This document shows, piece after piece, positions 6 through 28,418 of a stretch of 41,477 nucleotides of DNA. Both the position numbers and the translations under genes were made by a program. Below the pieces are notes generated by a model that worked only from the letters and a program-made list of their open reading frames with translations, made no database searches and was not told the origin of the DNA. This stretch comes from Bacteroidales bacterium (GTDB taxonomy: Bacteria; Bacteroidota; Bacteroidia; Bacteroidales; UBA7960), in NCBI GenBank assembly GCA_003560165.1, contig PWJC01000160.1:1-41477 (forward strand), in the 5' to 3' direction. Every line of letters starts with the position of its first letter. Position 1 is the first letter of the stretch.

Positions 6-1532
6 ATGGCCATACTCGGAAACATCATCAAGGCGGCCCTGGAGATCACCGACAGGGTAATGCCCGAGGCAACGCCCGTTAAATCGCAAAAGGAGGAACT
101 CAAAAACCTGCTCGAAAAAGCCGCAAACACCCGTTTCGGCCGGCACTACGGATTTTCCGGCATACTCAGGCAAAACGACCTGGCCGGGGCCTTTGCCGAA
201 GCCGTTCCCTTCCACGATTACAACGCCATGCATTCGGGCTGGTGGAAAGAGCAAATGGAAGAGGGCACCCCCGATATCACCTGGCCCGGGAAGGTAACCT
301 ACTATGCCATGAGCGCCGGCACCACAGGGAAGGAAAGCAAGCGCATCCCCGTTACCGAAAACATGCTGGAAGCCGTGCGCAAAACCAGCATAATGCAGAT
401 ACTCTCGACGGCTAACTTCGATTTCCCGGCCGCGTTTTACGAAAAGGAGATCATGATGCTGGGCAGCAGTACCAAGTTGAAAAAAGTACGGCATTACCGC
501 GAAGGTGAGATCAGCGGCATTGCCGCCGGCAACATACCCCCCTGGTTTGAGCGCTTTTACCGTCCGGGAAAAGAAATTGCCGCCATCACCGACTGGGACA
601 AAAGGGTGGATGCCATTGCCAGGGAAGCAAAAAACTGGGATATCGGCGCCATGGCGGGCATTCCCTCATGGAACGAACTGATGATGAAACGGGTCATCGA
701 AGCCAACAGGGCAGAAAGCATTCACGACATATGGCCCAACCTGAGGGTATTTGTTTCGGGGGGGGTGGCCTTCGATCCCTACCGCAAGTCGTTCGAATCC
801 CTTACCCGTTATCCACTGACCTTTATCGATACCTACCTGGCCAGTGAGGGATTCCTGGCCTACCAGTCGCGTCCTAACAAGGACATGGCCATGACCCTGT
901 CGACCAACAGCGGGATCTACTTCGAATTTGTGCCTTTCAGGGAAGAATACATCGACGAGGACGGCAGCCTTGTTCAGGGGGCCGAATCATTCGGGCTGGA
1001 GGAAGTGGAAACCGGGCAGGATTATGTGCTGGTGATCTCTACGGTAGCCGGTACCTGGAGGTATATGATCGGCGATACCATCCGTTTTACCGACAAGGAA
1101 AAAGCCGAGATCGTCATTACCGGACGCACAAAGCATTTCCTGAACGTGGTGGGCTCCCAGTTGAGCGTCATCCAGATGAACCAGGCCATGCGGCAGCTCG
1201 AGGACCGCTTTGGGCTGAAGATCCCCGAATTTACGGTGGCAGCCGTCAGGCCCGAGGACGAATACATCCACCAGTGGTACCTTGGCGTTTAAGGAGAGGC
1301 CGGTGAACAGGAAGTAACCGACTATCTCGACCAGATACTCAAGGAAACGAACAAAGCCTACAAAATGGCCAGGGAGCAGGCCTTGCGCGATGTCAGGGTG
1401 AAGATGGTCCCTCCACGTGTCTTTTACGAATGGATTGAACGGCAAAAGGCAAAGGGGGGGCAGGTGAAGTTTCCCCGGGTCATGACGCAGAAAAAGTTCA
1501 GGGAGTGGCAGGAATATGCCGACAAGGCCTGA
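6..1532 (+). pseudogene. GH3 auxin-responsive-promoter family protein, interrupted by an in-frame TAA
   Basis: The 428-residue ORF (6..1292) has the ANL/GH3 adenylating fold: an N-terminal GRHYGF segment, a Ser/Thr-rich loop (MSAGTTGKESKRIP, about residues 100-113) and the later GDTIRF motif. It stops at TAA 1290-1292, after WYLGV. The same frame then stays open for 79 more codons to TGA 1530-1532, and this tail looks like the GH3 C-terminus: an LDQILKETNKAY helix, a VPPRVFYEW segment and GGQVKFPRV. The full frame would give about 508 codons, the usual GH3 length, so this is a point nonsense codon (GAA, AAA or CAA to TAA) or a sequencing error and not a frameshift. Bacterial GH3 proteins are thought to conjugate amino acids to acyl adenylates; the substrate here is unknown. 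The truncated protein would lack most of the C-terminal lid domain. The start lies 5 bases into the window, so upstream context is missing. Confidence 0.85.
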
Positions 1533-1606
1533 TCAGGCCACTTGGGGCTGTCTGAACCGTTCAGGAGTAAAAAGTAGCCGGAAAAATTACTTTACGCAGC
1601 AGGTGT

Positions 1607-1637
1607 TTTGTTTTTTCTTCGCATATTTATACTTTTA
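1607..1637 (+). promoter_or_regulatory. Predicted Bacteroidota-type promoter for the LytTR pair
   Basis: TTTG (1607-1610), a 19-base spacer and TACTTTTA (1630-1637) match the Bacteroidota -33/-7 pattern TTTG...TAnnTTTG with one mismatch. It lies just upstream of ATG 1666 and inside the longer ORF that starts at 1516, which argues for the downstream start. Pattern match only. Confidence 0.55.
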
Positions 1638-1665
1638 TGTCGAAAAAAAACCAAAATACAGCTAC

Positions 1666-2013
1666 ATGAATACACATTTTCTAAAAAAAGGACTATGGGT
1701 GCGCGACCGCAGCCGTATCCGCCTGATCCCTTTTCATGAGATCACCCACATCCATCACAGCGACGGCATCTCTGAGGTGCGCATGGGCAGGGAGCTGCTG
1801 AAAAAGCTTCACATTCCCCTGCGGGGATTGGAGCAAATGATGCCTCCCCAGGTTTTTGTACGCACTCACCGGAATTACATCATCAACACAAGTTTCATTG
1901 ACCGCTACCTCTGCGGGAGAAAGCTGTCCGTTCAATTAGGCGGGGAGTCCATTCCCGTATCCAGGCGCAGGAAGAAACAACTGGAAAAAATATTGATGCA
2001 GCAGCACTCATAA
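1666..2013 (+). CDS. Stand-alone LytTR-type DNA-binding protein (first of two)
   Basis: I start this gene at ATG 1666 (MNTHFLKKG), giving 115 residues. The ORF-track start at 1516 lies upstream of a good promoter match and adds non-conserved sequence. The protein is essentially one LytTR domain: a VRDRSRIRLIPFHEITHI strand region, then FVRTHRNYIINTSFIDR, then a basic C-terminus IPVSRRRKKQLEKIL. This is the AlgR/AgrA/LytR-type DNA-binding fold. There is no receiver domain and no membrane segment, so input must come from a partner or from expression level. It sits 15 bp upstream of a second LytTR gene, very likely co-transcribed, with a CACHE-type periplasmic sensor next on the same strand. Regulated genes are unknown. 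Confidence 0.85.
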   Translation: MNTHFLKKGLWVRDRSRIRLIPFHEITHIHHSDGISEVRMGRELLKKLHIPLRGLEQMMPPQVFVRTHRNYIINTSFIDRYLCGRKLSVQLGGESIPVSRRRKKQLEKILMQQHS

Positions 2014-2028
2014 ACCTTTCCTGTCACC

Positions 2029-2349
2029 ATGGAGGAGCATGCCCTTCTTTCCCAGAAAGTATCCCATAAAGAAGACATTGACTATGTGTTCTTGTTTCAC
2101 GGATACACCATCGTGGTGCTAAAAAACGGCACCAACGAAGTGATCGACCTTCCCATGACGGCCATTGAACGCCTGCTGCGCGGACAGCCCTTTTTCAGGA
2201 TCCACCGTTCTTACCTGGTAAACCTGGACCGTGTCAGTGAACTCTCCCTTAAAAAGAACAAACTCATGATCCGCATGCGTGGGCAGGAACTCCCCGTATC
2301 GCGGCGAAAAAAACGAGAGTTGCTGGCCCTGCTGGGGGCCGTGAACTGA
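2029..2349 (+). CDS. Stand-alone LytTR-type DNA-binding protein (second of two)
   Basis: This is a 106-residue protein consisting of one LytTR domain: DYVFLFHGYTIVVLKNG, then IERLLRGQPFFRIHRSYLVNLDRV, then a basic end LPVSRRKKRELLALL. The RIHRSYLVN core is the best-conserved LytTR signature. It has no receiver, kinase or transmembrane part. It begins 15 bp after the previous LytTR gene and has a similar layout but clearly diverged sequence, so the two look like an old duplication or a heterodimeric pair. LytTR proteins bind as dimers to direct repeats, and a pair could form mixed dimers. That is inference. Confidence 0.87.
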   Translation: MEEHALLSQKVSHKEDIDYVFLFHGYTIVVLKNGTNEVIDLPMTAIERLLRGQPFFRIHRSYLVNLDRVSELSLKKNKLMIRMRGQELPVSRRKKRELLALLGAVN

Positions 2350-27926: not shown

Positions 27927-28418
27927 ATGAAGTGCATCGGACTGCTCTCCGACACCCATGGCTACCTGCACCCCGAAATCCCCCGCGTTTTTGCCCAATG
28001 CGACGAGATCTGGCATGCCGGCGATTTCGGAGACATTTCGGTGGCACACAGGCTCAGGGCCCTGAAACCCCTCAGGGGGGTCTTTGGTAATATCGACGGA
28101 AGGGAAATACGCTGGGAGTTCCCCGAAATGCTCCGCTTCGATTACGGGGGGCTGCAGGTAATAATGACCCATACCGGCGGGTATCCGGGCAATTACGCCC
28201 CCGGCATCGCAAACATGCTGAAAAACCATTCTCCCGCACTGTTCATCAGCGGGCATTCACACATCCTGAAGGTGATGTACGACAAAAAACTGGGGCTGCT
28301 ACACATCAATCCGGGCGCAGCGGGCCGATCGGGCTTCCACAAGACGATCACCATGATGCGGCTTTTCATCAGCGGACCGGTGATGAAAGACCTGGAGATC
28401 ATCGAATTTAAAAGATAG
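27927..28418 (+). CDS. YfcE/MJ0936-type metallophosphoesterase
   Basis: This 163-residue calcineurin-like phosphodiesterase has the metal-binding motifs in order: SDTHG, HAGDFGD, GNIDG, MTHTGG and SGHSH. Members hydrolyse phosphodiesters in vitro; the cellular substrate is unknown. A possible -7 element TATTTTTG lies about 55 bases upstream. It ends 36 bases before the ATG of the membrane-NTPase fusion, so the two may be co-transcribed. Confidence 0.92.
   Translation: MKCIGLLSDTHGYLHPEIPRVFAQCDEIWHAGDFGDISVAHRLRALKPLRGVFGNIDGREIRWEFPEMLRFDYGGLQVIMTHTGGYPGNYAPGIANMLKNHSPALFISGHSHILKVMYDKKLGLLHINPGAAGRSGFHKTITMMRLFISGPVMKDLEIIEFKR

Follow-up and report, generated by a model that had tools for sequence, protein, structure and literature searches.

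Does a stop codon inside a conserved gene record the loss of that gene, a changed reading of the codon, or an error in the assembled sequence? This question is raised by a GH3-like acyl-acid-amido-synthetase gene in the window analysed here, which is an entire contig of 41,477 bases from a draft metagenome assembly (2.7 Mb, 184 contigs, 95% complete). The whole gene occupies positions 6-1532 of the forward strand, its start lying five bases from the contig end, and the frame that opens at the ATG at position 6 meets an in-frame TAA at 1290-1292. A previous reading of the sequence alone (the sequence-only reading) had proposed a very recent nonsense mutation or a mistake in sequencing or assembly, with recoding as the least likely option. 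We found support both for this set of causes and for placing recoding last, and the weight shifts towards a base error because at least seven further conserved genes in this draft are likewise interrupted by a single in-frame stop.

A GH3-like gene interrupted by TAA

The 428 codons before the stop (6-1289, forward strand) encode the N-terminal and central domains and the start of the C-terminal domain according to Pfam and the orthologs, with Pfam matches to GH3 (E 3e-27) and GH3_M (E 9.6e-15). Past the stop, the frame remains open for 79 codons (1293-1529), as the sequence-only reading had claimed, up to a TGA at 1530-1532 that the ortholog alignment identifies as the normal gene end. This downstream part carries the rest of the GH3_C domain, marked by invariant positions, and matches the Pfam GH3_C model by itself (E 8e-10), confirming the earlier claim of GH3 C-terminal sequence after the stop. 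When the gene is read through the TAA, GH3_C is found as one domain (residues 391-496), and GH3, GH3_M and GH3_C score 95, 58 and 48 bits, respectively, against a Pfam cut-off of 23.6. The expectation of a normal family length once the stop is removed was also correct, with 508 codons compared to 507-512 in close orthologs. The tail is GH3-domain sequence beyond chance, being colinear with its nearest orthologs and retaining 17 of 18 tail residues that do not vary among 22 orthologs.

Orthologs in related genomes are 60-72% identical, and none of the other listed GH3 matches in 59 related genomes has an internal stop. Comparison with relatives, a check of the kind that had been suggested for this site, found a sense codon in every ortholog checked: at the position of the TAA, members of the genus and family mostly have GAA, and a few code for Asp, Ala or Ser. 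Given this predominance of Glu GAA, the simplest change leading to TAA is a single base, G to T.

The structure model of the protein has a pLDDT of 84.8, and each of its 27 best PDB matches is a GH3 enzyme, with E-values as low as 5e-22 and TM-scores of about 0.5-0.6. Plant GH3 acyl acid amido synthetases (OsGH3-8, 7dk8; AtGH3.5, 5kod; JAR1, 4epl) are the best PDB matches in both sequence and fold; they share the Pfam domains of the window protein, and the GGQVKFPR motif in its tail is aligned with NQYKVPR in the rice enzyme. Unlike the plant enzymes, the window protein is bacterial and TAA-interrupted, and over the fold alignment it shares no more than about 16% of residues with them. By domains and fold the protein is GH3-like, and it may have the amide-forming activity of that family. 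The best NCBIfam match is the bacterial lyso-ornithine lipid synthetase OlsH (NF052613; PMC12493201), which covers almost all of the read-through protein (E 4e-84); at 282.9 bits against a cut-off of 620, the window protein is not an OlsH by this test. Three further intact GH3 paralogs in the same genome score 328-421 bits against the same model. The authors who described OlsH doubt that Bacteroidota homologs produce ornithine lipids (PMC12493201).

Two observations were made in the surroundings of the gene. Directly after it lie two successive small LytTR DNA-binding-domain genes (1516-2349, forward strand), in which a Pfam scan found no receiver domain. Also, the 16-mer around the GH3 stop has five exact matches in viral contigs.

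Lone in-frame stops elsewhere in the draft genome

We scanned for stops inside coding-like frames in 1.05 Mb sampled as stretches, corresponding to 39% of the genome. Besides the GH3 gene, seven conserved genes were found to contain a single in-frame stop, in each case a substitution-type change after which the frame runs on intact for a long stretch. Five were first reached by the scan. Two of these lie on contig C73, both on the forward strand: a TAG in the Lon protease gene (L114, 15907-15909), where 17 genus orthologs have Ser, and a TAA in an AbgT-family transporter gene (L113, 12980-12982), where 13 orthologs have Tyr. The SufD gene has a TGA (L102, 5821-5823, forward strand, contig C104) at a position that is Cys in 15 orthologs, a pattern that recalls selenocysteine. 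An EamA-type transporter gene has a TAG (L104, 19064-19066, forward strand, contig C100) where 15 orthologs have Ser, and a TonB-receptor-like gene has a TAA (L143, 14781-14779, minus strand, contig C151; FT*STGRPVTYPE) where Tyr is expected from the sequence context alone. A TAG in a SusC/RagA gene (L090, 3420-3418, minus strand, contig C174), aligned to a Glu GAG in a sister, was reached via a short TonB Plug-domain frame, and a TAA in the PyrF gene (L129, about 14897-14895, minus strand, contig C136), at a Glu in a sister, by homology comparison.

Against NCBIfam, Lon, SufD, PyrF and SusC score above their cut-offs, AbgT scores below, EamA matches weakly and the TonB receptor not at all. 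In Lon, SufD, AbgT and EamA, the stop site is intact in genus orthologs, and the few stops flagged occur in other, mostly more distant homologs. All three stop codon types are represented among the eight lone stops, and no clear frameshift was found alongside them. Pfam searches for ABC, Plug and response-regulator domains found no stop inside 82 matches.

Similar isolated substitutions that are absent in sisters are what a base error in this draft leads one to expect. We found eight in the 1.05 Mb sampled here; the same scan over 1.16 Mb of DNA from seven sisters yielded no clear case and one unclear candidate (L173, position 2234). In terms of the scan alone the tally is seven versus none, or six versus none leaving out GH3. 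A filtered homology comparison gave nonsense breaks in five of 318 ORFs here versus none of 547 sister ORFs, counts that are biased in this direction by sister control regions partly chosen around the affected genes.

Several candidates were rejected. The one at position 28416 of the window separates two different genes, the one at L100 position 15950 lies in an antisense-like frame, and the others are gene boundaries or antisense frames. At L151 13892-14931 (forward strand, contig C172), two overlapping frames correspond to one fused frame in a sister (L291); these are either two genes or a frameshift and were not counted as a clear frameshift.

Base error or recent nonsense mutation

Taken together, the comparisons above make an erroneous base substitution in the draft metagenome consensus the most likely origin of the GH3 TAA, a technical cause that we infer. 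In the assembly, TAA would have taken the place of a Glu codon in an intact GH3-like gene, and G-to-T or C-to-A changes would be in keeping with low read depth, oxidative (8-oxoguanine) damage to the library, or a combination of the two. In favour of a base error, several of the lone stops hit normally important genes (Lon, SufD, PyrF); furthermore, with no clear frameshift among its members, the set of lone stops does not look like ordinary gene decay. A search of the literature returned no account of stop codons as errors in genome assemblies.

The kind of change may carry a signature of its own. The replaced residues are Glu (GH3, SusC, PyrF), Ser (Lon, EamA), Tyr (AbgT and, by context only, the TonB receptor) and Cys (SufD), and never Gln, Trp, Arg or Lys; all eight stops are compatible with G:C to T:A changes (G>T or C>A). 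Under uniform rates and the codon usage of this genome, the probability that all eight fall on compatible residues is 0.012, and a transition bias lowers it further. Oxidation artefacts of sequencing libraries are known to produce this class of change (PMC12390751), and the eight stops resemble them in fitting G>T or C>A; the diagnostic of those artefacts, however, is an asymmetry between read orientations, whereas the comparison here is of consensus sequences, in which missense changes lack this bias. Missense departures showed no excess of C>A, at rates that are confounded by tree shape, stop-selected genes and duplicate loci. Because the G:C to T:A pattern was noticed post hoc and missense changes lack the bias, the oxidation signature of the eight stops is suggestive only. 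A mutY-null mutator as the source of the pattern was rejected: MutY is intact in this genome, leaving this well-known genetic cause of G:C to T:A changes without support. In quantitative terms, about 230 uniform base errors in 0.92 Mb of coding sequence, or 2.5e-4 per base (Q36), would be enough to produce eight stops.

The main alternative, serious though less probable, is a recent nonsense mutation that really exists in the sampled population, either fixed or still segregating. It would turn this GH3 copy into a pseudogene whose product ends inside the C-terminal domain and lacks its invariant lysine. The commonest ortholog codon is one base away from TAA, and the loss may be tolerated, since the three intact GH3 paralogs may partly cover the function. 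The tail also offers some signal of relaxed selection: it is more diverged than the head predicts (best multiplier 2.8, 2dlnL 12.05), a longer tail branch than expected and the largest such deviation of the 23 taxa. This somewhat raised divergence is not explained by a pure error and argues against one, yet the intact relative L041 has a similar tail-to-head dN ratio. On the other hand, seven similar lone stops, including those in Lon, SufD and PyrF, are difficult to account for by separate genuine losses, and real losses would have accumulated here with no clear frameshift alongside. With 17 of 18 invariant positions kept, the tail cannot have drifted for long, and according to simulations of neutral decay it is unlikely to have taken up more than about 0.1-0.15 substitutions per base after the stop arose. 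The GH3 stop, if real, is young; it is thus either recent or an error, and the selection result does not decide between the two.

Truncated, recoded or leaky expression

We considered it very improbable that the interrupted gene works as it stands, either with the 428-residue protein acting alone or with the tail translated separately. An in-frame ATG is present at 1365, but this first start lies 24 codons past the stop, and part of the domain would be omitted; furthermore, none of the orthologs listed from the 59 related genomes is split. In the structure model the stop falls inside the C-terminal domain, just past a predicted strand (residues 420-429), and in plant GH3 enzymes this domain must pivot between the adenylation and transfer half-reactions (PMC11253546). 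Truncation at the TAA also removes Lys488 of the GGQVK motif (codon at 1467-1469, forward strand), which is conserved without exception in 21 aligned GH3 proteins, among them the paralogs from this genome. Because of the lost lysine and the pivoting of the plant C-terminal domain between steps, the 428-residue product should be inactive.

The intact and conserved frame after the stop would also fit a TAA that is read as an amino acid, through codon reassignment, a suppressor tRNA or programmed readthrough, so that full-length GH3 is made. Such recoding is extremely improbable given the rest of the genome. TAA, TGA and TAG terminate 257, 270 and 137 long coding frames, respectively, in the sampled 1.05 Mb (TAA thus ending 257 of 664), which is not the profile of a reassigned stop codon. 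Both RF-1-family release factors encoded in the genome are full-length, and none of the 38 tRNA genes found (genome 95% complete) has a stop-codon anticodon. No relative has a stop at the GH3 site, and no single recoding explains a set of lone stops that comprises all three stop codons. Neither an unusual RNA structure nor an Rfam element was found at the GH3 stop; a sub-threshold Rfam match to mir-375 at this site was set aside as chance. General leaky termination, in which all three stops would be tolerated and GH3, Lon, SufD and PyrF made by readthrough, deserves next to no credence.

A base error in the consensus thus probably accounts for the GH3 TAA, and with at least eight lone stops in conserved genes within the scanned 39%, the assembly carries a quality warning. 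Claims of gene loss or pseudogenes drawn from this assembly and from similar drafts need checking against the reads. If the stop is true, it would represent ordinary pseudogene formation in one of the four GH3 paralogs of this bacterium.
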